A DNA stretch of 64,000 bases from Sedimentisphaerales bacterium (GTDB lineage Bacteria; Planctomycetota; Phycisphaerae; Sedimentisphaerales; Anaerobacaceae), in the NCBI GenBank assembly GCA_016931715.1, contig JAFGEF010000015.1, forward strand, positions 1-64,000. The letters are read 5' to 3'. This document shows, one piece after another, positions 16,939-39,670 of the stretch. The notes beneath the pieces are model-generated. The model did no database searches. It had not been told where the DNA came from and saw nothing but the letters and a program-made list of their open reading frames with translations. Made by a program: the position numbers and the translations under genes. Position 1 is the stretch's first letter, and every line of letters begins with the position of its first letter.

Positions 16939-16953
16939 TTTTAACCTCTATGT

Positions 16954-18330
16954 TTATAAAAGCAAAGGAACCTGTATAGTCTTTCCCATGGTTGAAATAT
17001 CAGCATTGGCATTTAAAGCCCTGAAGATATCGAATACTGTGACCATACCTTCAACATTGCCCTTTTGATTTATAACAGGCAGACAGCGAACACCATGCTG
17101 ACACATATTTTCCATTATCCGGGTTATAGTCGTCTCTGGTTTTATCGTATGTACAGGTCTGCTCATTATCCACTTGATTCTGATACTAAGCGTCGCATCA
17201 TCAAGAGGTCTGCGCCACTTTGAAAATATTGCCCGCAGGTACGGGCTTACCGCTCCTGTTATATCAGACCGCGATACGATTCCTTCAGGCACGTTTGCGC
17301 TGCCAATCATCAGGTATCCTGTATCGAACTGCTGCATTTTTTCAATCGCCTGCTGTACACCGGCATCCGGGCTGCACCATGTGACATTTTTGTCCATAAT
17401 ATCTTTCGCGCATAACGACAAAGATATATGGTTTGATTCGTCAGGGGCAAGCGTACCGGAAACGGGCTGTCCGGGCAAAACTGCAGGTGACTGAGTCATT
17501 CTTTTAATCGTTTCTGAAACTGAGTTTTCATCCTGATTAACAGGATTATTTACAGGAACAGATTCCGTTTGAACTAATGTTTTTTCTGTTTCAACAGCCG
17601 GTTTATTTTCCTCATTTTCGACTTTCTTTGCATCACCGATTATTTCCAAATCCTTCTCTTTATTATCAACAGGACTCGTTTCGCTGTCTTTGTTCTCAAC
17701 CTTATCTTCTGCCGGACTGCTTTTTTCAGCGGGTAATTCCGACTGAAGCGCAAAGATGCTTTTCGGAAAGATTACGCCGCAGTTAAAAACCGGATATGAT
17801 CCGATTGTCATCTCGAAAGGAACGAATGAAAGCGATTCATCCTTGCGCAACCTTATGCTTTCCTCGGGCTTATCCCATGGATTCCCTATGAAAGTGCCAT
17901 TTTGCACAAAGTGACCGTGCCCAGTATATTCTTCCCGGAAAATTCGGTCCCACGAACCAACGCATAAATTTCCGGTTTCCCGGACTGCATCGTTCATGCT
18001 GTTTACATCCTGTACCGTTCCCCGTTTGATTTCTTCGAGGATTCTTTTTTCCGGGAGCATAACAATGATGCCGGAGAGAGTAAATAATCCGCCCTGGTCA
18101 AAAATCAAATAGAAAGTACCGTGTATGGCTCCTTCTGCATCAACATTATTAATAGCAGAGAGCTTTTTAAAGCGTTTCTTCAGACTATCAATTGTTTCGA
18201 TACTCGGTTTTTGCGGGACACATTTGATATCCACACCGAACATGCCCGAGATATCTTCACAAAATCTATCGAAAGCCGGCGCTGCTAATTCAATCGCTTT
18301 TGATTCAAGATCTATTTGTGTCACTGCCAT
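16954..18330 (-). CDS. CheX-like domain protein with C-terminal CBS pair
   Basis: This 458-residue protein has three parts. The N-terminal region (about 1-195) resembles CheC/CheX phosphatases: residues 110-126 read NSMNDAVRETGNLCVGS and carry the E-x-x-N phosphatase pair (E118, N121). The middle (about 200-300) is a low-complexity Lys/Glu/Ser/Asn linker. The C-terminus (about 310-450) is a CBS domain pair (AKDIMDKNVTWCSPDAGV; IMSRPVHTIKPETTI; RCLPVINQKGNVEGMVTVFD). CBS pairs bind adenine nucleotides, so it may link energy state to CheY dephosphorylation. That link is inference. It lies between cheX and cheA. Confidence 0.7.
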   Translation of the reverse strand: MAVTQIDLESKAIELAAPAFDRFCEDISGMFGVDIKCVPQKPSIETIDSLKKRFKKLSAINNVDAEGAIHGTFYLIFDQGGLFTLSGIIVMLPEKRILEEIKRGTVQDVNSMNDAVRETGNLCVGSWDRIFREEYTGHGHFVQNGTFIGNPWDKPEESIRLRKDESLSFVPFEMTIGSYPVFNCGVIFPKSIFALQSELPAEKSSPAEDKVENKDSETSPVDNKEKDLEIIGDAKKVENEENKPAVETEKTLVQTESVPVNNPVNQDENSVSETIKRMTQSPAVLPGQPVSGTLAPDESNHISLSLCAKDIMDKNVTWCSPDAGVQQAIEKMQQFDTGYLMIGSANVPEGIVSRSDITGAVSPYLRAIFSKWRRPLDDATLSIRIKWIMSRPVHTIKPETTITRIMENMCQHGVRCLPVINQKGNVEGMVTVFDIFRALNANADISTMGKTIQVPLLL

Positions 18331-18360
18331 CGTATAAAACCTTCGAACCGGGCTTTCTTT

Positions 18361-18843
18361 TTATAAAGAGTTATCTTTGTACAATAAACAGAATTCAGCA
18401 ATATATTTGCTGTCAATCAAAACTTTAACAATGGTCTTTATTGCCTGACCATCACTTAAGCGTGTTACAATTTCTCTGCCGCTTATTACAACAGGAATTG
18501 ATACAGAAATATTCCCTGTATTCTGCTGAATCTTGGTTTTCACGCTTCCCATAACCATATTGGCGACTTCACCAAGTGCATCGTAAGTACCTTCCCTGCT
18601 GATTTGTTCTTCGGGGTCCATACCAAGCATATTGATCCCGATGGATTTAGCACAATCTGTACTGCAGCAAATGGTTAAACAGCCATTGAGGTCCCCTTTG
18701 AATGTTATCGAGCTTAAAAGAGAATCGCCCGCAATATTCTGCTGTTCATCGAAACACTGTTCCAAATCCATAAAAATCATTGTTTCAAAAACTTCGCTTG
18801 CGCTAGCCAACAGCACACTATTCATACAAATACTATCTATCAT
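18361..18843 (-). CDS. cheX: Chemotaxis phosphatase CheX-like protein
   Basis: This 160-residue protein carries the CheX-type signature DALGEVANMVMGSVK (E92, N95), preceded by the beta strand SSITFKGDLNGCLTICC. CheX dephosphorylates CheY-P. It is encoded directly after cheY in the same operon (56-base gap). The start is ATG 18843 with AAGGA upstream. Confidence 0.85.
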   Translation of the reverse strand: MIDSICMNSVLLASASEVFETMIFMDLEQCFDEQQNIAGDSLLSSITFKGDLNGCLTICCSTDCAKSIGINMLGMDPEEQISREGTYDALGEVANMVMGSVKTKIQQNTGNISVSIPVVISGREIVTRLSDGQAIKTIVKVLIDSKYIAEFCLLYKDNSL

Positions 18844-18899
18844 TGTTTTGATTCCTTACTATAGCCCCGGATTTCATACTGCGGCTGAGAATCCATACC

Positions 18900-19274
18900 T
18901 TAATTCATAAACGGAGATAATTTCTCCTGGAATTTTTCAGGAGTAAACGGCTTGGTAATGTAACCATTTGCGCCATCGGCAATAATATTGTCAATTAGCT
19001 CCTGTGCGCTTTCCGTCGATACCATTATTATTTTTGTGTTGGCACAGTTACTCAGTTCACGAGCTTTTTTTACAAACTCCATTCCGTTCATTTCCGGCAT
19101 ATTAATATCACATAGTACAATATCAACAGGTCCGCTGCTCAGTTTTTCAAGAGCTTCTTTACCATTACCAGCCTCCTGCGGCTCGTTAAATTCAAGGCCT
19201 GACATTCTCATAGTTCGCATTATGATTTTTCTCATCGTTGCTGAATCATCTACAATCATTAATGATTTAGCCAT
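18900..19274 (-). CDS. cheY: Chemotaxis response regulator CheY
   Basis: This 124-residue single receiver domain has the acidic pair D9/D10, phosphoacceptor D56 in VLCDINMPEMNG, the switch Ser/Thr in IIMVSTES, and Lys in YITKPF. The ATG at 19274 follows AGGTGA at good spacing; the longer in-frame reading to 19370 passes through an inverted repeat and is unlikely. The second phosphatase-like gene downstream suggests tight control of its phosphorylation. Confidence 0.93.
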   Translation of the reverse strand: MAKSLMIVDDSATMRKIIMRTMRMSGLEFNEPQEAGNGKEALEKLSSGPVDIVLCDINMPEMNGMEFVKKARELSNCANTKIIMVSTESAQELIDNIIADGANGYITKPFTPEKFQEKLSPFMN

Positions 19275-19316
19275 AACACGTTCACCTGCACTTTCTCTTT
19301 CTTTTTCTTTTAGTGT

Positions 19317-19335
19317 CGCGGGCTTCCAGCCCGCG
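19317..19335. repeat. GC-rich palindrome upstream of cheY
   Basis: CGCGGGCT-tcc-AGCCCGCG is a perfect 8-bp stem with a three-base loop in the gap between the MCP and cheY genes. It could be a dispersed palindromic repeat or an intercistronic RNA hairpin. Only this copy is seen in the window. Confidence 0.45.
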
Positions 19336-19411
19336 TATTGTTTAAACCGAAGACAAGATGCCCTCGACATGTCAAGTTTCCTGCTTAATATCCTTATTAA
19401 ACATTATGCTA

Positions 19412-19441
19412 TAAGCGCCTCCAGATTTCTGGAGGCGCTTA
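19412..19441 (-). terminator. Strong hairpin after the MCP gene
   Basis: TAAGCGCCTCCAGA pairs perfectly with TCTGGAGGCGCTTA, 20 bases past the MCP stop. There is no T-tract after it on the minus strand. It may be a partial terminator or an RNA stabiliser that sets different levels of MCP and downstream che mRNA. Confidence 0.5.
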
Positions 19442-19461
19442 TATAACAACATGACAATTTA

Positions 19462-21657
19462 TTATGCATTAAACTCATCGAAATCATTGCTGTTAACATC
19501 ATTATCCTCTAAAGGGATGACGCTGCGAGCATGAGTATCAACTGATTTCTTGTTATTAACTTTCTTAGCCGAACCTTTTGCTATATTATGAAATACCTTG
19601 TTCGACACAGACAGCTCACTGTTTCCTTTAGTTACCCTGGATGCCTTCTTATTGGAAACTGAATTTCTTGTACCGGCATCGGCATGCTTTCTGTCACTGA
19701 CACCGCCGATAAGCATCGCCAAATCCTTAACTATCGAATCCATCTGTTCTGCCTGGGCACTCAGCTCTTCAGATGCACTTGCAGATTCTTCTGCATTTGC
19801 AGCGTTTTGCTGTGTGACTTTATCCATCTGAGAAACCGCGCTGTTGACCTGGTCTATACCCTGCGCCTGTTCTGCTGATGCAGCGGCTATTTCACTAATC
19901 AGGTCTGTAGTCTTGCCTATACTGGATACTATTTCTGCAAGAACCTTTCCAACTTCAGCGGCAATATCAACGCCGTTCTTTGAATTCTTGACTGATTCCT
20001 CAATCATATTAGCAGTATTTTTGGCTGCTTCCGCTGAACGCATTGCAAGATTGCGAACTTCTTCTGCAACAACAGCGAAACCTTTTCCTGCCTCGCCCGC
20101 TCTTGCAGCTTCGACTGCGGCATTCAAAGCCAGAAGATTGGTCTGGAATGCGATTTCGTCAATAACTTTAATAATCTTGGCTGTTTCGTTGGAACTCTTT
20201 TGAATATCCTGAATAGCCTGATTCATTTTTCCCATTGACTCATTGCCTGTATCCGCAGATTTTCTCGCCTCGGAAGCAAGTGTGTTTGCCTGCTGTGCAT
20301 TATCAGCATTTTGCTTTGTCATTGCAGACATTTCTTCAAGGCTGGAAGAAGTTTCTTCAAGACCTGCCGCCTGCTCTGTTGCGCCTTCCGCCAATGATTG
20401 AGAAGCGGAAGATACCTGTCTGGAAGCTGAGGCAACCTGTTCAGAACCTTCCGTAAGCTGGTTTACAATATGATTTATCTTGCCGGTTATACCACGTGCA
20501 ACAAAGAACCATACAAATGAAACAAGTAATAAAGCTCCGGCAAGAATACTGCCAAGCAGAAAATTGCTTGTTCGTCCTATTGCTGAGATACGGTCTTTGG
20601 CTGCATAGAATTCATCAACATAAGAACCTACACCAATAATCCAGTCCCATGGCTCGAAATACATGATGCGTACAACTTTCTCGCGTGCACTGGCATCTCC
20701 CTCATTTTTCCATGGATATCTCTGCTCTCCAATTTCACCTTTTCCAAGGACAAGAGCTTTTTTACAAATTTCCTGAATAAATAAATTTCCATTTGCATCC
20801 TTCATCTGGGAAATATCTTCTCCATCACGTGTTCCGCCTTTGGAAATTACATAATGACCCGCCGAATCAAGAACATATACATAACCTGTCTTGCCAACTT
20901 CGGTCTTCATTATTGACTGCCTCAGAGATGCTACGCTTTCCTGCGGAATACCAACATACAAAGCTCCGACAACGTTATTGTTCTTATCAACAATTGGTTC
21001 ATAAGCAGTTATGTACCACTTATTCACAACATAAGCCCGGCCTTTATAAGTTTGGCCGCTCAGAACTGCACTGATGACGGGATTCTGGCTGCCATCTGCA
21101 TTGGTCTTCGGAATATAAGTTCCAATTGCACGGGTACCATCCGTATTCTGTACGTTTGTAGCAATACGCAGCATATCTCCGGCATCGTTCATCCTCTGGA
21201 AGATAGTGCATGTAGCTCCGCAAAGAGTTTTGACCCTGTCAACAACAGCCGATGACTTTCCCATGTCACTGTTCTGGCCCAGCCATGTTTCTCCAACTAA
21301 CATCTTGGGAAGCTCGACACGGGAAGCAGCTTTGTTGGCCTGATTAATTGCATTCCATGTTACACCCTCCTGTGAAAAACTAACTTCACCAGTACTCTTG
21401 AAAACGTCACGTGCAATATTCAGTGAATATCCAAGATTCTCCCGAATAAGTTCCTGTTGTGTTTCACAAAGTGTATAAATACTTTTCGTGATATGGTCAA
21501 GGTCAGCATAAGCCATCTTTGTATTCTCTACATCGGACACTTTAACAATTTTTGTGTTCTGGTAATATACTATTACCGATACCGCCAGGAGCGGGATGAT
21601 TGTCAACAAGATACCTATTGTCAACAGCTTTGTTCGCAATTTCATATTTTTAAACAT
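19462..21657 (-). CDS. Methyl-accepting chemotaxis protein with Cache-type sensor
   Basis: This 731-residue receptor has membrane segments at about residues 9-29 and 372-393. The periplasmic region of about 340 residues fits a Cache_3-Cache_2 type sensor ([25 protein letters not shown], then [18 protein letters not shown] and [14 protein letters not shown]). It binds small ligands, unidentified here. The cytoplasmic signalling hairpin has the conserved tip [20 protein letters not shown] and [16 protein letters not shown]. The tail after about 660 is Lys/Ser/Asn-rich, and the C-terminus lacks a CheR-tether pentapeptide. The start is ATG 21657 behind AAAGGAG. Confidence 0.93.
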
Positions 21658-21716
21658 TTGATTTCTCCTTTATAACATTACTAAAAGTTATTTTTTTGTT
21701 TGATTACTTTCTCGAA

Positions 21717-23216
21717 TTAGAATTTGTACGTAAGTGATAGTTGAGCACGGGTAGAGTCAGAATCATCCAGATTCTTATATGCTGTTTCCCATTGTGACAG
21801 CTCAAAACCTATTTGCGTATTGCTATTTATTGCGTAAACAAAATTTCCGAATACTGTCGCGTTCTGTATCTTGCTGCCTGAAGCGACATCATCTCTCTCA
21901 ACATCATCTACGCCTGCACCAATATTGAAATTCCATTTGTCCCACGGCCCCACGCTCGCGGCAATCCAGCCGCCCTGGGCGCCAATCTCATTCAACGAAG
22001 CAGTATTGACGCTCTGGCCTATGCCGCCGAAATAAGTACCGAGAGTCTCGCCTCTAAAATATTCGCCCTGAATAGTCAGCCATTTATTAATCGGCTGTGT
22101 TAAGTCGATATTGGCAGACCAGCTCTCGAACTTCTTATTGCTTCCATCGTTTTGAGTATCGTACTCTTCTCTTCCTATATGCCCGGAAAAACCGAGTGTT
22201 GTCGGTTTATATCCGAGCAAAGGAAATGACATGCTCAATCGTGACTGAGCAGTCGGATAACCTGCATCCATACCTGTTTCGGCATATGGAGCGGCGCTTG
22301 TGCCTTTGTCAGTTCCGATACTCCTGGCAAGAGCAGCTTCAAATTTAACAAAATTCTTGTCCTCGCCGGTCCAGGTCTTGGTATAACGAATCTGCGGACG
22401 TCTGTAACCTATATTTCCCACATCCCATAAAACTGTATAATTCAGAGTCGAAGGACATAAAGGCGACATAACATCAGAAGTTTGTCCGGCAAGAATTTCG
22501 CTGCCGTTTGCCCAGTTAAGTTTCAAATAAGCATGGCGCATCTGAATCTTCGCCTTGTTCTCGGACGCATAATTTCCGTAGAAATCGAATTCGAGAAGCC
22601 CGCTCGACTTAATTCCGTCTTTTTCCGGCCCGTTTATCTTGAAGCCCAAACGTGTCTGATTGGCGGTCATATTAAAACCGTCATCATCCGGATTTGTCGC
22701 TTCTGAATCGACATAAACCGCGTAATTTCCGGCAGTAGTCAAAGACGTATCATATGAAGCATCGAATTTGACGTATCCATAAAACTGAATATCCAAATTT
22801 GACCATAAAGGAAGCCCCTTCGGCGCCGGTGCTGCAGCCACAGGTTTCTTTTCTGCAGCGGCCGGACTCTTTTCTGCTGCGACCGAGCTTTCTTTACCAA
22901 GTTGAAGCTTGCTTGTATCTGGCTTTGTCTGCGCGGAAACAGGTTTCACTGACGTTACTGCCGGTGTTGATTTCGTTTCAGATGATTTTAAGGACAGATT
23001 CCAGGGAGAGCCGCTTTTTACAGGCTCTTTTTCCTCAACTTTTGAAGAACTGGTAATTTTCATATCTTCCGATGAAGCAGCAGTTTTGAGAGATTCCAAT
23101 TCCTTCTCCATTTTACTGATTCTATCACGAAGATCATTGTTATTCATCTGGCTCGGCATACAAACCGAAACCATGAATAAAACTAACACAATTGAAAGAA
23201 TGTTTTTTCTGTACAT
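21717..23216 (-). CDS. DcaP-like outer-membrane porin
   Basis: This 499-residue protein has a signal peptide (about 1-22), a short coiled coil (LRDRISKMEKELESLK, about 29-45), a Ser/Lys/Pro/Ala-rich linker with repeated AAEK motifs, then a beta-barrel domain from about residue 135 to the C-terminal Phe. Strand motifs such as IQFYGYVKFDASYD, NQTRLGFKINGP and the final AQLSLTYKF fit DcaP-type trimeric porins with an N-terminal coiled coil. It would let small anionic solutes across an outer membrane. Its position inside the che operon between cheW and the MCP is unusual. The start is ATG 23216 behind GAGG. Confidence 0.8.
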   Translation of the reverse strand: MYRKNILSIVLVLFMVSVCMPSQMNNNDLRDRISKMEKELESLKTAASSEDMKITSSSKVEEKEPVKSGSPWNLSLKSSETKSTPAVTSVKPVSAQTKPDTSKLQLGKESSVAAEKSPAAAEKKPVAAAPAPKGLPLWSNLDIQFYGYVKFDASYDTSLTTAGNYAVYVDSEATNPDDDGFNMTANQTRLGFKINGPEKDGIKSSGLLEFDFYGNYASENKAKIQMRHAYLKLNWANGSEILAGQTSDVMSPLCPSTLNYTVLWDVGNIGYRRPQIRYTKTWTGEDKNFVKFEAALARSIGTDKGTSAAPYAETGMDAGYPTAQSRLSMSFPLLGYKPTTLGFSGHIGREEYDTQNDGSNKKFESWSANIDLTQPINKWLTIQGEYFRGETLGTYFGGIGQSVNTASLNEIGAQGGWIAASVGPWDKWNFNIGAGVDDVERDDVASGSKIQNATVFGNFVYAINSNTQIGFELSQWETAYKNLDDSDSTRAQLSLTYKF

Positions 23217-23234
23217 TTTTTACCTCACTTAATA

Positions 23235-23798
23235 TTAAGCATTTTCTGCGGGATTATTTTCTGTTCTGGCAGTGAATCCGGAAAAATCGGTGCCGCTGAG
23301 AACTTTATCAATATCAAGAAGAATTTTCACCGCTGTGCCGACTTTACCCATTCCGACGATAAAATCAGTATTTACGGAAGAGCCGAACTGAGGTGTTTCT
23401 TCGATATTATCACCGGTGATGTCGAGCACTTCCTGCACCCTGTCAACCACAATACCGGTACTGCAATTGCGGCCGCCCTGCGTAGTTTCTACTACGATAA
23501 TGCAGGTCTGTTCTGTTACCTGAGCGGTTTCCATACCGAACTTTGCCCGAAGGTCAATCACGGGTATTACCTGACCTCGCAGGTTTATTACGCCTTTTAC
23601 ATATTCAGGCATCTGCGGGACTGCCGTGATATCCATGTACCCGATAATCTCACGGACTTTCAATATTTCCAGCCCATATTCTTCGTTGGCCAGAGCAAAG
23701 GTAAGGTACTTGCCTTCCCTGTCCATCAGCGCCTGACCGGAACCGCTCTGGTTCAGGGACTGATTTTCCTTTACTGACGTTGGTTTTGCTTCTGTCAT
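23235..23798 (-). CDS. cheW: Chemotaxis coupling protein CheW
   Basis: This 187-residue protein carries one CheW domain (about 27-170): YLTFALANEEYGLEILKVREI, MPEYVKGVINLRGQVIPVIDLR, and VDRVQEVLDI. The first 25 residues and last 15 are polar extensions. It links CheA to the receptor. It is the first gene of the minus-strand operon, with AAGGAG upstream, and has a long structured leader before it. Confidence 0.95.
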   Translation of the reverse strand: MTEAKPTSVKENQSLNQSGSGQALMDREGKYLTFALANEEYGLEILKVREIIGYMDITAVPQMPEYVKGVINLRGQVIPVIDLRAKFGMETAQVTEQTCIIVVETTQGGRNCSTGIVVDRVQEVLDITGDNIEETPQFGSSVNTDFIVGMGKVGTAVKILLDIDKVLSGTDFSGFTARTENNPAENA

Positions 23799-24481
23799 AA
23801 CTTGCTCCTTAACTTTATTTTACTTTTGTACGGTCAAATAACTCGCCTTTTGGCGCACACCAGGCGAAAATGACTTTTTAAAATATATTTAAGTTCCTAT
23901 AATCTTCGGAATATAGGACTTAATGCCATATTCATTTGTAAAACCAGCGTTTAGCATTGAGCGTATAATTTTCTGCACGCTATACGCTGCACAATTTCAA
24001 TAGATTCCACAGGGCTGAGATTTGCAAATAGCCGCTTTTTTACGCCACAGACGTATATTAGCAGCTCTCGGCCAAAATAATCACCCAATACCAGGTAGGT
24101 ATTGGATTAGCGTCTTTTCGTCTGAATTCATCCTGACCTTAAGAAAATTTCCTCTTATTTTTATCCGCTTTCAATTTTTTTTTGGAAACTCACCATGAAC
24201 AATATTATTTTCGTCTCATAAAACCAAAATAATATCCCATAATAACGAAATTTTTCTTGACAAAATGCGGAATAAAAGAGATAATTATTATTGATTTTCC
24301 GCTGTTATTTTTATAGTAAAAGTAATCCGCTAAAAGTGGATTTTAATTCTTTTATACAGACAAAATAGAGTTGAAAAATTAGGGGATAAGTTAAAAAATG
24401 CCTAAAGTTGGAGTTGAACACCTTCGGCGTATTTACTTTAGTTCACTTTAACTTTTTCTCCTGGATTTGGAGGGTACGAAA
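23799..24481. other. Divergent 683-bp intergenic region with several RNA hairpins
   Basis: This gap serves as leader for cheW (minus) and for the Cys-repeat protein (plus). Hairpins seen: 23890-23922 (TAAGTTCCTATA / TATAGGACTTA, one bulge), 23961-23987 (GCGTATA / TATACGC), 24085-24105 (CCAATACC / GGTATTGG), and 24404-24454 (AAAGTTGGAGTTGAAC / GTTCACTTTAACTTT, imperfect). A plus-strand promoter is at 24257-24285. I could not match the minus-strand leader to a known riboswitch class by eye. No gene is seen. Confidence 0.5.
24257..24285 (+). promoter_or_regulatory. Sigma-70-like promoter of the Cys-repeat protein operon
   Basis: Perfect TTGACA (24257-24262), a 17-base spacer, then GATAAT (24280-24285). 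This implies a leader of about 190 bases that includes the imperfect hairpin at 24404-24454 just before the ribosome binding site GGAGGG. Confidence 0.6.
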
Positions 24482-27400
24482 ATGAAAAAGTCAAGTACTC
24501 AGGCGGCATTCCCCATTCTCCTTATTTGTGTATTTATAATAGTCTTTGTGCCGTCAGCATCAGGTCTTTTGAGCAATCTTGGCAGCTTAATAATAACAGA
24601 GTTGACCAGTACCAGGCTAAGCAGTCTTCACGGAGTAAGTTCCGGTGTTTATATAACACCAGAGCCTGCAGACAGTGAATGCGACTGGAGGTACGGGTAT
24701 CCTCACAAGATGCACTGGCCTCAATTGCCTGATTTCGGTACAGCAGGAATGGATGTCGATGCCTCGCAGGCAATTTTAGCAGATGATTTCAAATGCACAG
24801 CAACAGGCCCAATTAATGATATACACTTCTGGGCATCTTTTGAAAACGATATTTTACCAGCAAATGGAGCAAACAGCCTGTCATTTGAGATAAAGATTTA
24901 TTCGGATAAGCCTGCAAGCGCCAATTCATGGAGCAGCCCTGAAAGTATTCTTTGGAGCAGAATATTTAATCCGGGTGATTATACTGTTCGCCAGATAAGG
25001 AATCGGCTTTCGGACTGGTTCGATCCGCTGATGCTTGTTAATTCAGCCGACAATCACAGGCAGGCATTTCAATATAATTTCTGTGTAAAAAACAATCCGT
25101 TCATTCAGGAGGAAGGCACAATTTACTGGCTCAGCATCAGAGAAATAAGGTCTGAAAATGCGATTCACAAGCTGGGCTGGAAAACAACGACAAAAAAGCT
25201 CAGATGGAATGATAATGCCGTGTATTCTGTGCCGGGAGCGGCTGCATGGCTTCCTATGTACTACCCGAAAGCGCACGAATACGAGGGACAGTCGATAAAT
25301 CTGGCATTTTCAATTACTGACGGGCTCCAGGGAGACCGAATGCATGACCTTGGTGATGCCCCGGACAGTTCGAATACGTTTCCGGGTGTAACGATGACGG
25401 CTTATGATGCAAATACAACAGCACATTATCCAACAGTATTCTGGACAAACTTTCCGCCATTTGGCCCAATTCACTGGCAGCCCGAGAAATGGTTTTATCT
25501 TGGAAAAGATGTAAGCTTTGAAAGCGGCGCGGACTCCGGATATGATGAGGATACCAATAATAACCTCTATCCGCCGGGAAATATGGCTAATCGGGACGGT
25601 TCTGATGACGGCATAAAACTGCCCCTGGTACTGCCGCACTGCCAGCAGGCAAAAATACCATTTACAGTTACGTTTGTCAGCCCGACTGGTAGTACTCCGA
25701 TTTACTTAAATGTCTGGTGCGATTGGAACCGGGATGGCGATTGGGATGATACTATGACATGCCCGGACGGCAAAAATGCACCGGAATGGGCTGTGCAAAA
25801 TGCATCAATTATTAATAATTTCGCCGGTACAGTTGACCTGGAAACAAATTCTTTCATGTGCTGGCATCCTCAAACCGGCGATGAACCAGACCCGATGTGG
25901 CTGCGAATTACACTTTCGGAAAAAACATGGAGCACGTCTTATCCATCTTTAATCGGCTCGAGCGGCTGCGGCCCCGATGAGGGTTACGAATATGGCGAGA
26001 CTGAGGATTACCTGATTTATGCAAAAGAAGATCCAAACTCGACTCAATATGACTGGGCAGACGCCCCAGACAGCTATTCATATCCAGCGTATCCGACAAT
26101 TTCAACTAACAATGGCGCTTATCATGTAATTACAGGACCATGGCTGGGAGATGCAAACGATAAACCAGATGCAGAGCTGAACGGTCAGCCCGATGCAAAC
26201 GCTTTGGGCGATGATTTGGATACCGAGCCGTTGTTCTCATTAGGCTCAACAATTGATGACGAGAACGGCGTGACAATACCACCTTTGATTCCGGGGTATC
26301 CTGCTGATATAACGCTCGAAGTGGGCGGCGGCGGCGGTGTTGTTCAGGCATGGATAGACTATAACAGCGATATGGGCTGGCAGCCTGAAGAAGAGGTTTA
26401 TAATAATTTCCTGTCTCCGGGCTTGCATGTTATTTCATTTATTGTGCCTGACGATGCAATAACCGGACAGTCTTTCGCCAGGTTCCGAATCAGCAGAGAC
26501 GGTAATCTTGCACCGGATGGTCCGGCGAGGGATGGAGAAGTTGAAGATTACGAAGTACTTATCGACTCGCTTTCACCTTATACAAAATGGCTTCAATTAC
26601 CTGATGTTACCCCGCACGGAATAGATATACAGGTAGATTCCAACGATGGGATGCGCATAATTGCGGACGATTTCGAATGTACAAATACTGATAAAATTAC
26701 TGATGTTCATTTCTGGGGTTCATGGAAAAATGATAAAAAATACGATATAGAAAGAATCCATCTCAGCATCTATAATGACGTCCCGGCAGACAGTTCAAAT
26801 CCGTATTCACAACCTGCCGCCAAAGTTCTGTGGCAGAAAGATTTCTACCCGGGCGAGTTTACTGAGAAACTTTATCATGAAGTTCGCAAGCCTGGCGAGT
26901 GGTGGTGGGACCCCGTGAAAAACAATCTTGTCGAAGGAGCGGACAAGCAAATTTGGAAAATCGATATCGACATCAATCCAAACGAGGCATTCACGCAGCA
27001 GGGTACTGCTGATAATCCGCGAATATACTGGCTTGCAATACGCGTTGATACTAATGACGGCGAATTCGGCTGGAAAACCAGAAGATGGCCGGACCATTAT
27101 ATGGATGATGCTGTCTGGGATGTCGGCTCTGAGCTGCCGCGATTGTGGAAAGAACTTCGATACCCAAAGAAACATCCGTATCATGATATAGAAAGAAATT
27201 CCGTTGATATGGCATTCCAACTGACTTATACACAGGATCAGGGAATACCTACCATGAGGCCTGTAAGCCTGACTCAATGCCCGGCGATTCAGACAAAATG
27301 TCCGGCTGCCGCTACAGCCTGTCCGCCTGTTAATACTCGCTGTCCGGCTGCAGCTACGAAATGTCCGCCTGTACAGACACAGTGTATGGCAATCACGGTT

Positions 27401-28852
27401 TGCCAGGGAAGCTCGGAAACTATATGTCCGGCCGTACTTACACAATGCCCTGTCATTGAGACTCAATGCCCGGCTGCTGTAACACAATGCGTTGCAATCA
27501 CGGTTTGCCAGGGAAGTTCGGAAACTATATGTCCGGCTGTACTTACACAATGCCCTGTCGTTGAAACTGAGTGTCCGCCGGTGGAAACCCAGTGCCCGGT
27601 CGTAGAAACCAAGTGTCCTTTCGTAGAAACAAAATGTTATGCAATTACAGTTTGTGGAGGAAGTTCAGAAACAATATGCCCGGCGCTTCAGACTCAATGT
27701 CCCGTGGTTGAGACTGAATGTCCGCCGACAACATCAATATGTCCCCCTGTACTGACTCAGTGTACTGCTGTTGATACTCTATGCCCGCCGGTGGAAACCC
27801 AATGTCCGCCTGAACAATGCCAGGTCGAAACAGTTTATCCGGCAGCAGAAACCAAGTGTCCTGTAGAGCAGACAAAATGTCCTGCTGTTGTAACAAGATG
27901 TCCGCCGATTGAGACAAGATGTCCCCCTGTTGATACTGAATGTCCGGTTGTCGAGACAGAATGCCCTGCAAACGAAACCTATTGTCCCGTTTATCAGACA
28001 TATTGTCCGCCCGTCGATACAAGATGCCCGCCGATTGAGACATATTGTCCGCCTATAGATACTAAATGTCCGCCGGTAGAGACGGGATGTCCTTCACCGC
28101 CGACCGAATGTTTAATTATAGCAACTGAGTGCCCGCAGGAGCCGACTCGCTGCCCGCCAATAGAGACTCAATGTCCTCCCGAACCGACCTTATGCCAGGT
28201 AATAGCGACTCAGTGCCCGGTAGAAACAGTCTGTCCTGCTGCTGAGACCAAGTGTCCCGCAGAGCAAACAAAATGTCCGGTAGAAACAACAAAATGTCCT
28301 GTTTATGAGACAAGATGCCCTACTATTGATACGCAATGTCCGATGAATCAGACATACTGTCCGCCGGTAGAAACTGAATGCCCGCCAGCCGATACCAAAT
28401 GTCCGCCGGTTGAAACGCAATGCCCGCCTGAACAATGCCAGGTAGAAACAGTATATCCGGCTGTGGAAACAAAATGCCCGCCGGTTCAAACTCGCTGCCC
28501 GGTAGTTGAAACAGAATGTCCTCCGGTTGAAACAAAATGTCCAGACGGGCCAACATACTGCCCGATAGTCATTACTCAATGTCCTCGATATGAGACATGG
28601 TGCACACAGGTTGAGACTCAGTGCCCATATGACCAGACGAAATGTCCGCCTCCGAATCCTACAGGAAGCTGCGACCCTCCGCCTATTCCGCCATGGGAAA
28701 TTAAAGGCTCTGATTTAATGATATATTCAGACCTAAGCATAACTGAAGAAGCAAAAAGAACGATAGCAGTTCCTGTAATACAAGCTTGTCCTGCAATAGA
28801 AGTAATATGCCCGACTATTATTAACAAAGAGAATTTATTAGTTAAGATTTGA
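24482..28852 (+). CDS. Giant secreted protein: GEVED domains plus about 65 Cys-Pro heptads
   Basis: This 1456-residue protein has an N-terminal signal peptide (about 1-28). Residues about 60-265 and 705-915 are a duplicated domain (ADDFKCT...DIHFWASF; ADDFECT...DVHFWGSW) of a type common in planctomycetal secreted proteins (DUF7901-like, by memory). Between them are two GEVED-type domains, ending GYEYGETEDYLIYA and DGEVEDYEVLI. Residues 933-1397 are tandem heptads of the form C-P-x-x-x-T-x. The last 60 residues contain two more CP units and no anchor motif. The start is ATG 24482 behind GGAGG. No enzyme motif is seen. It would act outside the cytoplasm, probably as a structural or binding protein. 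The next gene overlaps its stop. Confidence 0.85.
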   Translation: MKKSSTQAAFPILLICVFIIVFVPSASGLLSNLGSLIITELTSTRLSSLHGVSSGVYITPEPADSECDWRYGYPHKMHWPQLPDFGTAGMDVDASQAILADDFKCTATGPINDIHFWASFENDILPANGANSLSFEIKIYSDKPASANSWSSPESILWSRIFNPGDYTVRQIRNRLSDWFDPLMLVNSADNHRQAFQYNFCVKNNPFIQEEGTIYWLSIREIRSENAIHKLGWKTTTKKLRWNDNAVYSVPGAAAWLPMYYPKAHEYEGQSINLAFSITDGLQGDRMHDLGDAPDSSNTFPGVTMTAYDANTTAHYPTVFWTNFPPFGPIHWQPEKWFYLGKDVSFESGADSGYDEDTNNNLYPPGNMANRDGSDDGIKLPLVLPHCQQAKIPFTVTFVSPTGSTPIYLNVWCDWNRDGDWDDTMTCPDGKNAPEWAVQNASIINNFAGTVDLETNSFMCWHPQTGDEPDPMWLRITLSEKTWSTSYPSLIGSSGCGPDEGYEYGETEDYLIYAKEDPNSTQYDWADAPDSYSYPAYPTISTNNGAYHVITGPWLGDANDKPDAELNGQPDANALGDDLDTEPLFSLGSTIDDENGVTIPPLIPGYPADITLEVGGGGGVVQAWIDYNSDMGWQPEEEVYNNFLSPGLHVISFIVPDDAITGQSFARFRISRDGNLAPDGPARDGEVEDYEVLIDSLSPYTKWLQLPDVTPHGIDIQVDSNDGMRIIADDFECTNTDKITDVHFWGSWKNDKKYDIERIHLSIYNDVPADSSNPYSQPAAKVLWQKDFYPGEFTEKLYHEVRKPGEWWWDPVKNNLVEGADKQIWKIDIDINPNEAFTQQGTADNPRIYWLAIRVDTNDGEFGWKTRRWPDHYMDDAVWDVGSELPRLWKELRYPKKHPYHDIERNSVDMAFQLTYTQDQGIPTMRPVSLTQCPAIQTKCPAAATACPPVNTRCPAAATKCPPVQTQCMAITVCQGSSETICPAVLTQCPVIETQCPAAVTQCVAITVCQGSSETICPAVLTQCPVVETECPPVETQCPVVETKCPFVETKCYAITVCGGSSETICPALQTQCPVVETECPPTTSICPPVLTQCTAVDTLCPPVETQCPPEQCQVETVYPAAETKCPVEQTKCPAVVTRCPPIETRCPPVDTECPVVETECPANETYCPVYQTYCPPVDTRCPPIETYCPPIDTKCPPVETGCPSPPTECLIIATECPQEPTRCPPIETQCPPEPTLCQVIATQCPVETVCPAAETKCPAEQTKCPVETTKCPVYETRCPTIDTQCPMNQTYCPPVETECPPADTKCPPVETQCPPEQCQVETVYPAVETKCPPVQTRCPVVETECPPVETKCPDGPTYCPIVITQCPRYETWCTQVETQCPYDQTKCPPPNPTGSCDPPPIPPWEIKGSDLMIYSDLSITEEAKRTIAVPVIQACPAIEVICPTIINKENLLVKI
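27278..28672 (+). repeat. Tandem 21-bp coding repeat (Cys-Pro heptads)
   Basis: The block encodes about 65 Cys-initiated units, mostly seven residues: CPPVETQ, CPVVETE, CPPIDTK and similar. Cys, Pro and Thr positions are near-invariant; the others vary between Val/Ile/Ala/Pro and Glu/Gln/Lys/Arg. Irregular inserts recur: AITVC-x-GSSETIC three times and CQVETVYPA-x-ETK twice, pointing to segmental duplication of multi-unit blocks. The repeats keep alternative frames open on the minus strand; these are artefacts. Confidence 0.9.
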
Positions 28853-31530
28853 TCTTTGTATTTTCAGTAATATTTCTAATTGCAGTATCTATAATCTCAG
28901 GTATAATCTTCTACGTGAGCCAGAGAAGACTATTACAATCCGAAGGATTTGTCAAAGATTCTTCACCGGAAACAATGACCTGCTCAGGTTTAACGGTGCT
29001 GGTCATATCGTCTTTTATAGCGGCGTGGATTGCATCCGGTTCAGTCGGATTACTTTCACATCCTTTAAGGCGGGTACTGACAATAATTTTTTTAGCAATA
29101 GCTGTTTTAGCTCCGCGCCCCTGCCCATGGCAAAAAAATACAAGCCGCTTAATCATCTTTGCAGCGTCATGCCTTGCTATATATATGATTACCTCGTCTT
29201 TACCTGCTGTCAATATACTGGCAGTTGCTCTTGTTCCGGCCGGGCTTGCTGTAATATCTACAGGGCAAACAAAAAGAATTTCAGGTATCTTAGCTTCTTC
29301 TGTTTTAATATTTGCCATTTACCGCATGGCTTATATCAGCATACCATCAATCTGGTTAATCTCTGATAAAATAAGCCATATATTCGGGACTGTTGCAGGC
29401 TCTGTAACCGGCATACCTTTATTAACAGGTTCAACTTTCGCAGGTATTGATTTTCTTGTCCTGACAAGCACATTTTGGATATTATGTCTGTCATTTACTC
29501 CAAAGCCAAAAACTGCAAGAGCTATATACGGATTTTCAGGAATCCTTGGAGGTCATCTTTGTTATCTGTTTGTATTATCTTACGCTCCGAAACTGCTTGA
29601 AGCAGCAGTCGAACCCGCAGGTGAGGAAATATGGTCATGGGCAGGTCTTTTCCACAAGGCCGTTCCCTGGAACCTGCCTGTTTTGGCTTGCGGAATTCAT
29701 CTTATTATCGCAGCATCTGTTTTCCGCTGGCTGCAATGGCCTGCAGAAAATCCGGCGGAAGAAAAAGTCACTATATCATCACGACGCAATAAATATATGT
29801 TCGGTATTTCCGGAGCGGCTCTTGCAATTTTACTGCCTGTTATTCTTGCACTATATCCAAATCAATTAACACTTCAGGGCAAGAAGATAGTTTTCAACGA
29901 AAAAGGATTCTTAAACTGGCTCAAACCCGAATACGGCCAGTATGGAAGGCTTTCAAGCGGAATGTACGGAATGCTTCCGGTATTCGTGGAAAGCCTCGGA
30001 GGCGCCAGCCTGATTTCGGAAAATTTATCCGAGAATGACCTGAGTGATGCAGATGTTTTAGTATTGCTTTTCCCTGACGACCCATGGGCTGAAGGCCAGC
30101 TCGAGCGAATTTGGAATTTTGTGAGAAAGGGAGGCTCACTGCTTGTAATGGGCGAACATACAACTGCCGACAGCGATGGCAGCAATCGTTTTAACGAAGT
30201 GCTCGAACCAACCGATATGCGAGTCGAATTCGATTGCGCAACATTCACAGTAGGAGGCTGGCTTCAGTCATACGATTCTATTATTCATCCTGCCGCAGCG
30301 GGCATACCGGATGAACGAAATCAATTCGGGGTTGTTATCGGCGCATCGCTGAATATCAGCTTGCCGGCCCGGCCTCTATTAATTGGGCGATGGGGATGGT
30401 CTGATATGGGAGACCAGGGAAGTTCCAGAGCAATGATGGGTGACGATATCTATAATCCGGGTGAAAGGCTCGGCGATTTAATCCTTGCCGCCGAGCAGCC
30501 GCTGGGAAAAGGTCGTGTCATTGCTTTCGGTGATACTTCAGGGCTGACAAACGGAATTAATGTAAGCTCATATGTTTTCACTTCCAGGCTCTTCGGCTAT
30601 CTTGCGGGACATAACAACAACGCACATCCTTTTTGGAGACAGCTTTCAGGAATATTTTTATGTCTTCTGCTGATTATACTTACGCTCACAAAATTCAACG
30701 CATGGCATGTCACTCTTATAATCCTGTGCCTGTCGGTATCTATGGCTCTATCCCAAACGATTACTCAGCGTTCGGACGAGATTCTTCCTGATGGACGATA
30801 CAAAACTCCCAATAACCTCGCACTCGTCGATTCTTCACACCTCGAAGCATACAGCGGCGAATCATGGCGGCCTGATGGTGTCGGCGGACTTATGCTTACT
30901 TTGATGCGAAATAACTACCTTGCATTATCACTTTCGGAATTTTCCACAAAGCAGCTTGCACGTGCAGACCTTTACATCTCTATTGCACCATCACGAAGCT
31001 TTTCGCAAAAAGAACAGGAAGCAATAAAAGACTTTGTAATGAACGGCGGCAGCTTTATTATCGCTGCAGGTATGGAACAAGCCGGTCCCTGCTCTTCTTT
31101 ACTTTCGCAATTTGGATTCGCAATCGGAACAAAAAGCCCGGATGAACTCGAACCAGTACCGTTAGGATATTTTAAGTCACCTTATTTGAGTTCCGGAAAC
31201 CAGCAGGTGTTTGTGCGTTTCCACGCCGCATGGCCTGTTTATTGCAATGATTCTCAGGCAAGAGTAATTGCTTACGGGCGCTACAATGTTCCCGTTATTA
31301 TCATGCGAAGTTTCGGAAAAGGAAAAGTTGCTGTTATTGGTGACACTTGCTTTGCGATGAATAAAAATCTCGAATATGAGGGAGGCGAACCTTTCGAGGG
31401 TATGCGCGAGAATGCCGATTTCTGGCGATGGTTTATTACAGTTTTACGCGACCAGGAAGGGACATGGATTCCACCCGCTCTGCAAACGCAGGATTCCATT
31501 AACAAACCTGAAAAGGAGGGCGCAAATTGA
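28849..31530 (+). CDS. Polytopic membrane protein with DUF4350-like extracytoplasmic domains (first paralogue)
   Basis: This 893-residue protein begins with about 10 membrane segments (residues 1-350). An extracytoplasmic region (about 355-595) has a glutamine-amidotransferase-like/DUF4350 pattern: DADVLVLLFPDD, WNFVRKGGSLLVMGEHTT and GKGRVIAFGDTSG. Two membrane segments (about 600-645) follow, then a second similar domain with IKDFVMNGGSFIIAAG and GKGKVAVIGDTC. The TTG start overlaps the upstream stop (TTGA), implying translational coupling. Part of the N-terminal region (HIFGTVAGSVTGIPLLTG) faintly recalls exosortase topology, but no catalytic Cys-Arg arrangement is clear. The function is unknown; co-transcription suggests handling or export of the Cys-repeat protein. 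Confidence 0.7.
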   Translation: MIFVFSVIFLIAVSIISGIIFYVSQRRLLQSEGFVKDSSPETMTCSGLTVLVISSFIAAWIASGSVGLLSHPLRRVLTIIFLAIAVLAPRPCPWQKNTSRLIIFAASCLAIYMITSSLPAVNILAVALVPAGLAVISTGQTKRISGILASSVLIFAIYRMAYISIPSIWLISDKISHIFGTVAGSVTGIPLLTGSTFAGIDFLVLTSTFWILCLSFTPKPKTARAIYGFSGILGGHLCYLFVLSYAPKLLEAAVEPAGEEIWSWAGLFHKAVPWNLPVLACGIHLIIAASVFRWLQWPAENPAEEKVTISSRRNKYMFGISGAALAILLPVILALYPNQLTLQGKKIVFNEKGFLNWLKPEYGQYGRLSSGMYGMLPVFVESLGGASLISENLSENDLSDADVLVLLFPDDPWAEGQLERIWNFVRKGGSLLVMGEHTTADSDGSNRFNEVLEPTDMRVEFDCATFTVGGWLQSYDSIIHPAAAGIPDERNQFGVVIGASLNISLPARPLLIGRWGWSDMGDQGSSRAMMGDDIYNPGERLGDLILAAEQPLGKGRVIAFGDTSGLTNGINVSSYVFTSRLFGYLAGHNNNAHPFWRQLSGIFLCLLLIILTLTKFNAWHVTLIILCLSVSMALSQTITQRSDEILPDGRYKTPNNLALVDSSHLEAYSGESWRPDGVGGLMLTLMRNNYLALSLSEFSTKQLARADLYISIAPSRSFSQKEQEAIKDFVMNGGSFIIAAGMEQAGPCSSLLSQFGFAIGTKSPDELEPVPLGYFKSPYLSSGNQQVFVRFHAAWPVYCNDSQARVIAYGRYNVPVIIMRSFGKGKVAVIGDTCFAMNKNLEYEGGEPFEGMRENADFWRWFITVLRDQEGTWIPPALQTQDSINKPEKEGAN

Positions 31531-34031
31531 AACGGACATGGATTAGTCTTGCTTTTTTCAGCGCTTCGTGGCTTTTCGGGCTAAGCTATTATTATGATGC
31601 ACAATGGTTAGTCTGGCTGATTCTTGTCGCGGCCGGCACAGGCTTATTAGTCGGAGTTCAGCTTCGAAAACCAACGGCGTTCGAGACGGCCATAGCCGCG
31701 ATAATGCTGCTGCCTGTTATTAAAATAGCTCCATGGCCCTATCGTATTGCTCCGCTGCTTGTTTTTGCCGGTTTGCTGTTTATTACTATACCCATCCCAC
31801 GCAAATGGCCGCAATATTTGGCACCGGCTTTTCTTCTTGCAGGTTATATTTTGGTAATACAGTCGCTTGCCATTTTTGCCTATGAATATGTCACCTCAAG
31901 ATCGCACGAGCTGCCGCGATTTATTTCGTATATGCTTTGCGGCGTTTCCCGGATTATCGGCATTCCTTCCGCTTTCAACGGTTTAAATCTCGCCATGTAC
32001 ACACAGAGACTCGTCCATCAAACTGGAACTGTATGGGAGTTGTTTTTTGACCCGGCTGCTTTCGCTTTTCTTTTCGGCGGGATTGTAATACTGTGCCTTT
32101 GTAAGTCCGAAGACACAGGCAGAGCTAAACAAATATCGTTTTTGCTCATTTCGATAGCCGCATGGCTGCCTGTACGAGCTGCAATTCTAATATCTATATT
32201 TATGCACCGCGCTCTGAGAACCGAATATGAATCGGAACTTGCCTTAGTCACACAATTCTGGAATCCATGGCTGCTGATGGCGCTTTTAATCGGACCGGTT
32301 TTAATCGTACTGCGATTCGTTCATAAACCTTTTGATACACAATATGCCGCAGTTATACAACCTGACAATCCGCGTAATAAGAGTATAAGAATAATCGTAT
32401 TGTCTTTTCTTGGCAGTTTCCTGCTGATTTCAGGTTTATTGTTAGACATACCGGGCACTCGCAAACAGGAACGTGTCGCTGTGGATGAATTTCATTCCAA
32501 CTGGGAGCGAACAGACAAACCTTTTGATACTGAATGGTATGGACAGGAATCAGGTTACAATTACGCGTGTATTTATGACTATTGCTCGCGTTTTTATAAC
32601 ATGTCACGCCTGACAGCCGCGATTGATAAAACAACTCTGAATAATTGCGATGTTCTCATAGTTAAAGTCCCCACCTCGCGGTATGCACCGGAAGAAATCT
32701 CATATATCGAGCAATTTGTCAAACGGGGCGGCGGCCTGATGCTTGTCGGGGAACATACGAGCGTATTCAATTCAGGAACATACATAAACGATGTCGCACA
32801 AATATTCGGCATGCGATTTCGTTACGACTGTCTTTTCGATATAGATACTACTTTCGAGCAGCTTTATCATCCGCCTGTTGTGCCGCACCCGATAATTCAA
32901 AATATGCCGCCCCTGAATTTTGCAGTTTCGTGCTCAATAGAACCGACAGCAAAAATCGGACTGGCGGTAATTCGTTCAACCGGCCTGAAAAATCTGACTG
33001 CTGATTATCACGTAAGCAATTATTATCCGCAGGTGGAGAATCTTGCACAGATGCGGTATGGCGCTTTTATCCAGTTATGGGCATCACAACACGGCAAGGG
33101 TCGTGTTGCCGCGTTTTCCGATTCGACAATTTTTTCCAATTTCGCGACATTCGAGGAAGGCAAAGCAGAATTAATGCTCGGAATGATAGAGTGGCTGAAC
33201 CACGAAAACCCGCGATTTAATGTCACTATCCTGCTGATAATTTCAGGACTGATTGTCTTCACTGCCGGCGTTATATTATCAGGAAAATCAAACAACACAT
33301 GGCTTATAATAATGACTTCTGCATTATTAGGCTGGGCAGCCGCTTCAGGCAGTGCAAAAACGATTCATAAATATTCCATGCCTCTGCCGCAGGCAAAACG
33401 TCCCATGGTTAATGTCACGATAGACAGAACTATCTGCAGCGTTCCCCTTTCCAGAAGCGGCTTCATATCCGGGCAAAAGAACGGATTCGGAATTTTCGAG
33501 CGATGGATACTTCGCCTGGGCTATTTCACCTCCCGCAAACAGGGAATTGATGCCATATCAGGCGATCTTGTCGTATTTACTTATCCAAACCTGTCTGTCT
33601 CAAACGAATACCGTGAAGCGATGGTCAATTATATCACTAATGGTGGAAAAATATTGATTCTGGATTCGCCCGAAAATACCAATTCGACCGCAAACAGCCT
33701 GCTATATCCCTTTGGCATAAATATTAATCGAACTGTCCCTCAGAATGGCCAGCTAAAAACACCCGAAAACTGGCCAGCGATAAAAATTGATTCCGCTTAT
33801 CCCATCGAGGGCGCCGAGCCGTTTTTGTGGGCAAATAATATTCCAGTAGGCGCAAGTCTCAATTTCGGAAAAGGAACTGTCACTGTCATCAGTTTCGGCT
33901 CGAAATTCGCAGATGCATTTATGGGAATAACAGGTGACGTAGTGCCAAACAGCGAACAGCGAAAGGTATTTGACCTCGGATTTGCAGTATTAAGAAGAAT
34001 TATCTCCGAAGAAAAACCACGGAACAACTAA
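31527..34031 (+). CDS. Polytopic membrane protein with DUF4350-like extracytoplasmic domains (second paralogue)
   Basis: This 834-residue protein shares the layout of the preceding gene: about nine membrane segments (1-310), a DUF4350-like domain (about 315-555; IEQFVKRGGGLMLVGEHTS, GKGRVAAFSDSTIF), two membrane segments, and a second domain ending GKGTVTVISFGSKF. Its N-terminal part (RIIGIPSAFNGLNLA ... WLPVRAAILISIFMHR) is laid out like the exosortase/archaeosortase family, including an Arg in the NxxR-like position, but FDPAAF stands where the active-site Cys would be expected. The TTG start overlaps the previous stop and follows AAGGAGGG. Its stop overlaps that of the convergent PAC2 gene. 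The function is unknown. Confidence 0.7.
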   Translation: MKRTWISLAFFSASWLFGLSYYYDAQWLVWLILVAAGTGLLVGVQLRKPTAFETAIAAIMLLPVIKIAPWPYRIAPLLVFAGLLFITIPIPRKWPQYLAPAFLLAGYILVIQSLAIFAYEYVTSRSHELPRFISYMLCGVSRIIGIPSAFNGLNLAMYTQRLVHQTGTVWELFFDPAAFAFLFGGIVILCLCKSEDTGRAKQISFLLISIAAWLPVRAAILISIFMHRALRTEYESELALVTQFWNPWLLMALLIGPVLIVLRFVHKPFDTQYAAVIQPDNPRNKSIRIIVLSFLGSFLLISGLLLDIPGTRKQERVAVDEFHSNWERTDKPFDTEWYGQESGYNYACIYDYCSRFYNMSRLTAAIDKTTLNNCDVLIVKVPTSRYAPEEISYIEQFVKRGGGLMLVGEHTSVFNSGTYINDVAQIFGMRFRYDCLFDIDTTFEQLYHPPVVPHPIIQNMPPLNFAVSCSIEPTAKIGLAVIRSTGLKNLTADYHVSNYYPQVENLAQMRYGAFIQLWASQHGKGRVAAFSDSTIFSNFATFEEGKAELMLGMIEWLNHENPRFNVTILLIISGLIVFTAGVILSGKSNNTWLIIMTSALLGWAAASGSAKTIHKYSMPLPQAKRPMVNVTIDRTICSVPLSRSGFISGQKNGFGIFERWILRLGYFTSRKQGIDAISGDLVVFTYPNLSVSNEYREAMVNYITNGGKILILDSPENTNSTANSLLYPFGININRTVPQNGQLKTPENWPAIKIDSAYPIEGAEPFLWANNIPVGASLNFGKGTVTVISFGSKFADAFMGITGDVVPNSEQRKVFDLGFAVLRRIISEEKPRNN

Positions 34032-39505: not shown

Positions 39506-39670
39506 TTTGAATCCTTCCATTTTTAAAGTGCACAATATTTTCGGAATGGATAAACCATTCATTAATTTATCGGCATGAACAGTATTATTACTTGAATATT
39601 TATAGGACTGACATCTGAATGAAAAACCAAGAGGATTATCGGAACTTCTTCATTATTACAATATTATAAG

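Follow-up and report, generated by a model that had tools for sequence, protein, structure and literature searches.

Tandem CPxxxTx cysteine heptads in probably exported bacterial proteins and their genetic linkage to a pair of membrane-protein genes

Planctomycetes have long been thought to have cysteine-rich protein walls. Among described cysteine-rich wall families of these bacteria we found none except the YTV proteins of one order. The YTV-domain proteins were found in wall preparations of Planctomycetales, and they have been reported only in that order (PMC8567305). They are the nearest known kind to the proteins analyzed here, which carry long arrays of the heptad Cys-Pro-x-x-x-Thr-x (CPxxxTx), since both are rich in Cys, occur in Planctomycetes, and are exported (probably so for the protein studied here). 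The likeness is one of kind and not of family: CPxxxTx arrays occur in Phycisphaerae/Sedimentisphaerales, Verrucomicrobiota, and others, they are accompanied by a pair of genes that we call A and B, and they share no family match with the YTV proteins. The YTV domain model gave no match to the protein studied here up to an E-value of 1 and none among 35 array segments up to an E-value of 10. For A and B, the closest described proteins are those with GldG/ABC_transp_aux, DUF4350, and GIFT domains, and it is the soluble domains that they have in common; archaeal DUF4350 proteins (arCOG01314) are predicted members of a secretion complex and have S-layer-like proteins as neighbors (PMC5898192). 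A and B differ from all of these in having about 10 N-terminal membrane helices and two soluble domains each, and in occurring as a pair.

The DNA analyzed, hereafter the window, is a stretch of 64,000 nucleotides from a Sedimentisphaerales bacterium (contig JAFGEF010000015.1, positions 1 to 64,000). Gene H (24482–28852, + strand) encodes the array protein. Its longest open reading frame runs from 24467 to 28852 on the + strand and encodes 1461 residues counted from TTG 24467; however, ATG 24482 is the likelier start because a GGAGG ribosome site precedes it. A promoter-like site, TTGACA-17-GATAAT (24257–24285, +), matches the consensus at 11 of 12 positions and is the best + strand site in the region by consensus scan, making it a putative promoter; a search upstream of H for an RNA element found none. 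The product begins with a probable signal peptide, MKKSSTQAAFPILLICVFIIVFVPSASG (24482–24565), with a hydropathy of 2.74 over 19 residues and an n-region containing two Lys. This signal-like segment, together with relatives of the same layout, suggests that H is probably exported. There follow a first DUF7901 domain (24710–25318; PF25470, E-value 2e-47), two GEVED stretches, the better of which lies at 26342–26557 (PF20009, whole-protein E-value 4e-19), a second DUF7901 domain (26582–27226; PF25470), and then the array (27278–28672). Near the C-terminus, comparison with the C-termini of relatives identified the motif CPAIEVICPTI (28787–28819), which they keep as C[PLV]x[VIL]xxxC[PLM][TS][VILA]. 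The hydropathy of this C-terminus is weak (1.74), and H does not have the features of PEP-CTERM/exosortase-type sorting.

The original prediction described about 65 tandem CPxxxTx heptads at residues 933–1397, and the repeat is real. The same stretch is residues 938–1402 in our numbering, which counts from the TTG rather than from ATG 24482. It contains 66 of the 78 Cys of H, with 10 before it and two in the tail, and 53 of its Cys are spaced exactly seven apart. Exact CPxxxTxC units number 48, compared with a maximum of 4 in 20,000 shuffles of the array's own residues, and at the DNA level a pattern of three heptads plus Cys matches 29 times in the window where none is expected. Counted over the whole reading frame there are 54 Cys-to-Cys heptads, 53 of them within the array. 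Pro, predicted to follow Cys always, does so in 50 of the 54, a slight overstatement, and Thr stands two residues before the next Cys in 52 of the 54. About 12 units are irregular, with lengths of 5, 6, 8, 9, or 13 residues, and among the irregular blocks are AITVC-x-GSSETIC and CPPEQCQVETVYP; the former is present three times, bearing out the block duplication that had been proposed from it. Is the array a recent expansion? Pairwise agreement at third codon positions among the 48 exact units, whose residues are fixed because the units were chosen for the motif, is 0.53 for Cys, 0.41 for Pro, and 0.31 for Thr. The scrambling of these positions at invariant residues indicates that the units are old and have been kept by selection; thus, the array is not a fresh DNA expansion. 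It has no second copy in the window genome. Elsewhere in the window, a 318-base tandem repeat of 1.9 copies (38560–39163) lies within the open reading frame 37664–39562 (–), the product of which has a sub-threshold DUF1664 match.

Comparison with Pfam, NCBIfam, and PDB sequences revealed no family that spans the array, in agreement with the claim that no family for the repeat had been described; over the window array no curated Pfam or NCBIfam repeat model scored above its cut-off, and neither CPxxxTx repeats nor the H-A-B trio turned up in our searches of the open-access literature. When 35 array segments were compared with Pfam, the sole recurrent match was the MSG family of Pneumocystis (PF02349; best E-value 1e-7), also a Cys-rich surface protein. 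Some relatives score better than the window segment, which at 18.1 bits is below the curated cut-off of 22, and the match is likelier to follow Cys spacing than kinship. Similarly, the best PDB sequence match was granulin (2jyv; E-value 0.0018), a weak profile match through the Cys pattern to a small folded domain that lacks CPxxxTx periodicity. An AlphaFold prediction of 17 heptads with the 35 aligned segments gave a pLDDT of 49 and no usable model. With its V-x-T-x-C alternation, the unit would fit a beta strand that turns Val, Thr, and Cys to the same side. A coil of 21 residues (three heptads), or a fixed solenoid, is unsupported by heptad autocorrelation: the array at locus L040 repeats every three heptads and that at L037 every eight, while the window array has no clear lag.

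The CPxxxTx repeat defines a multi-phylum family, a point absent from the original prediction. Relatives were found by scanning genome contigs with the three-heptad DNA pattern, which gave at least 117 stretches; neither scanning with the full-length protein nor querying with an alignment recovered any. Among the matches listed, 34 reading frames with ten or more exact units form the family set. Their 1634 Cys-to-Cys heptads have Thr in 97.2% and Pro in 88.4%, with Ser replacing Thr in 0.8%, and Cys spacing is seven in 79% of cases, the other common spacings being 8, 9, 5, and 10. According to record titles, heptad proteins occur in Planctomycetota (Phycisphaerae, Sedimentisphaerales, Pirellulales, Brocadiia, and others), in Verrucomicrobiota, and in Victivallales/Lentisphaerota-type bacteria; single bins titled Deltaproteobacteria and Nealsonbacteria may be misbinned. 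Arrays in these secreted relatives reach about 130 heptads. Most of the loci come from metagenome assemblies, and because assemblies break within arrays, short-read data may give the wrong number of units; runs of N/X lie inside the arrays of L052, L068, L123, and L132. Many matches (Haloechinothrix, Nostoc, Actinophytocola, and viral contigs), with 3–9 heptads and mostly short frames, were discounted as coincidence or DNA repeats, as were a match in a Streptomyces plasmid and genome matches with stops or lacking CPxxxT.

The N-termini of the heptad proteins differ, with unrelated domains and some short heads. The DUF7901-GEVED-DUF7901-type head recurs in eight relatives with full-length similarity to H (L052, L061, L068, L104, L132, L139, L147, and L155), and three others, read by eye, end in dockerin-like repeats (L133, L048, and L272). 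In L053 (2521–3240), also read by eye, eleven heptads are fused to a cytochrome c-like tail in which CxCH replaces CxxCH.

H heads a conserved locus of three genes, H-A-B, which the original prediction likewise did not mention. Two paralogous genes for polytopic membrane proteins, A and then B, directly follow H, and the same order on one strand is seen in the window and at L037, L061, L062, L068, L105, L110, L121, and L132, as well as at L261, L267, L268, L269, L271, L272, L276, L278, L282, and L283, these two sets overlapping because a few places in the L261–L283 set were fetched twice. In the near relative L110, A and B are 73% and 78% identical to the window genes. How closely do heptads and A travel together? 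In a sample of 392 Planctomycetota genomes, 17 had A, seven had true heptads, and six had both, so that A was present in six of the seven heptad genomes versus 11 of the 385 others (Fisher p 1.7e-8, or 3.4e-7 without the window genome, neither value taking account of relatedness among genomes); in the seventh, G080, the heptad gene lies at a contig end. True-heptad counts were made after removing matches with stops or lacking the motif and sorting weak ones by hand. Likewise, among 388 Verrucomicrobiota genomes six had A and three had heptads, all three with A; without the centre genome, A was present in both heptad genomes versus three of 385 (p 1.3e-4, again ignoring relatedness). Genomes picked for having heptads carried A in 19 of 21 cases. 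Divergent from the window locus is a chemotaxis-like block (14830–23798) encoding a CheA-type kinase, a Cache MCP, CheW proteins, and a DcaP-like porin.

Gene A (28849–31530, +; its start may be GTG 28915) encodes about 10 predicted N-terminal membrane helices followed by two GIFT/DUF4350-type soluble domains, and gene B (31527–34031, +), whose first 4 bases are also the last 4 of A, encodes a distant paralogue (about 22–25% identity). Each combines many N-terminal membrane helices with GIFT/DUF4350/ABC_transp_aux (GldG-like) domains. Both score above the curated DUF4350/GIFT cut-off (63.3 bits for A and 43.4 for B, versus 30.4), whereas with the GldG equivalog model (TIGR03521) A and B score 18.7 and 19.7 bits, far below its cut-off of 389.85. 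The AlphaFold model of A (pLDDT 70, pTM 0.69) matches the GIFT domain of IFT52 with a target TM-score of 0.68 and also matches GH42-type enzymes. Exosortase-like domains, suspected by eye, could not be matched in either protein at E-values up to 10, and no glycosyltransferase family was found in either; one B homologue weakly matches OST48_N, a GIFT-fold oligosaccharyltransferase subunit (E-value 6e-4). No ABC ATPase, AAA ATPase, or vWA gene was seen as a constant neighbor at A-B loci.

Some A-B pairs without nearby heptads adjoin other Cys-rich secreted proteins. Upstream of one such pair, L218 (10307–15274, –) encodes a secreted protein of 1656 residues with 137 Cys and units like C[KR]xTxDPNDPx, another unnamed Cys repeat; other neighbors have CSV units (L220 and L229), 12 Cys in 241 residues (L225), or YWCxxCKxYH (L265 and L266). 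A-B pairs also lie beside RHS-like giants or low-Cys proteins (L221–L224 and L226–L228), so A and B need not be specific for Cys. From these mixed neighbors, it seems that A and B work for exported proteins that are large or repetitive and often rich in Cys. A short motif like SPL[YF]xxxxLxxAL occurs just after the signal-like segment at the N-termini of L137, L315, L217, L265, L266, and L275, and may be a tag by which A-B recognize these otherwise different, A-B-linked secreted proteins.

We propose that H is the structural product of the H-A-B locus and that, after export, its array would stretch out beyond the inner membrane as a long segment, either extended or filamentous. The regularly spaced Cys would be cross-linked, within or between chains, yielding a tough cell-surface or wall material, and the N-terminal domains would act as interchangeable heads, DUF7901/GEVED in H and others elsewhere. 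A and B may pair in an inner-membrane complex that works for proteins of this type; export, delivery to the surface, or assembly would be its most likely task. We give this reading, cross-linked extracellular or wall material with A-B as dedicated export or assembly partners, an even chance of being right. In its favor are the conservation of the unit, the linkage to A-B, the other Cys-rich neighbors of A-B pairs, the precedents of the YTV and archaeal DUF4350 proteins, and a VKOR-DsbA type fusion encoded in the window genome, a means of making disulfides outside the cytoplasm. Against the proposal stand the array pLDDT of 49, the A-B pairs beside RHS-type or low-Cys proteins, the metagenomic origin of most loci, and the failure to find COX1 in the window genome; this last point suggests a possibly oxygen-free life, a setting that favors disulfides less. 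That possibly anaerobic life would suit an unlikely alternative, in which the array is a surface thiolate binder of metal, sulfide, or electron carriers and A-B insert or transport what it binds. About 14% Cys outside the cell and the fusion of heptads to a cytochrome c-like tail in L053 point the same way, but a Cys every seven residues followed by Pro does not resemble the ligand spacing of CxxC motifs or metallothioneins, the heptads contain hardly any His, no array segment matches a metal family, and the conserved Thr would be left unexplained.

That Thr is central to a somewhat less probable reading, a stalk in which it bears an O-glycan attached by way of A-B, with Cys serving just to staple the chain. 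The near invariance of Thr, the Pro-rich context, and the OST48_N match are consistent with such a stalk; however, Ser also serves most O-glycosylation, and its rarity in the 1634 heptads argues against a plain mucin-like stalk, while A and B, which lack a glycosyltransferase family, match DUF4350 more closely. The fixed T-x-C spacing of nearly all units would fit a modified peptide, with Thr and Cys cross-linked by a thioether or similar bond and A-B as export parts, and three members weakly match HvfA, a thiol-modified RiPP model (E-value 0.011). We regard this as very improbable, given that the HvfA match is weak and found in three of 35 segments, that the locus has no conserved modifying enzyme, and that a Sec-type signal and large folded heads are present. 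It is also improbable, though less so, that the linkage is incidental or loose, with A-B at the service of large repetitive surface proteins of any kind and no special chemistry in the array. Several genomes with A-B beside RHS-like or Cys-poor proteins, and the very different proteins that carry the array, would accord with that, but the strong co-occurrence in two phyla and the exact conservation of the unit speak against it.

Returning to the cross-linked material, we tentatively extend the proposal, with less confidence than we have in its narrower form, to an undescribed H-A-B export-and-assembly system of PVC bacteria and some others, in which a GIFT pair forms the core and modular Cys repeats (CPxxxTx, DPNDP-Cys, CSV, and others) build covalently cross-linked filaments outside the cell or walls. 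The CPxxxTx proteins constitute a second Cys-repeat family, unrelated to YTV, in other orders and phyla and with a genetic partner. If A and B are needed to place H-type proteins, they would constitute a new way of delivering large polymers to the surface. Finally, if the array is a fibre, it would show how a cross-linked protein material can be built to a simple design of seven residues.
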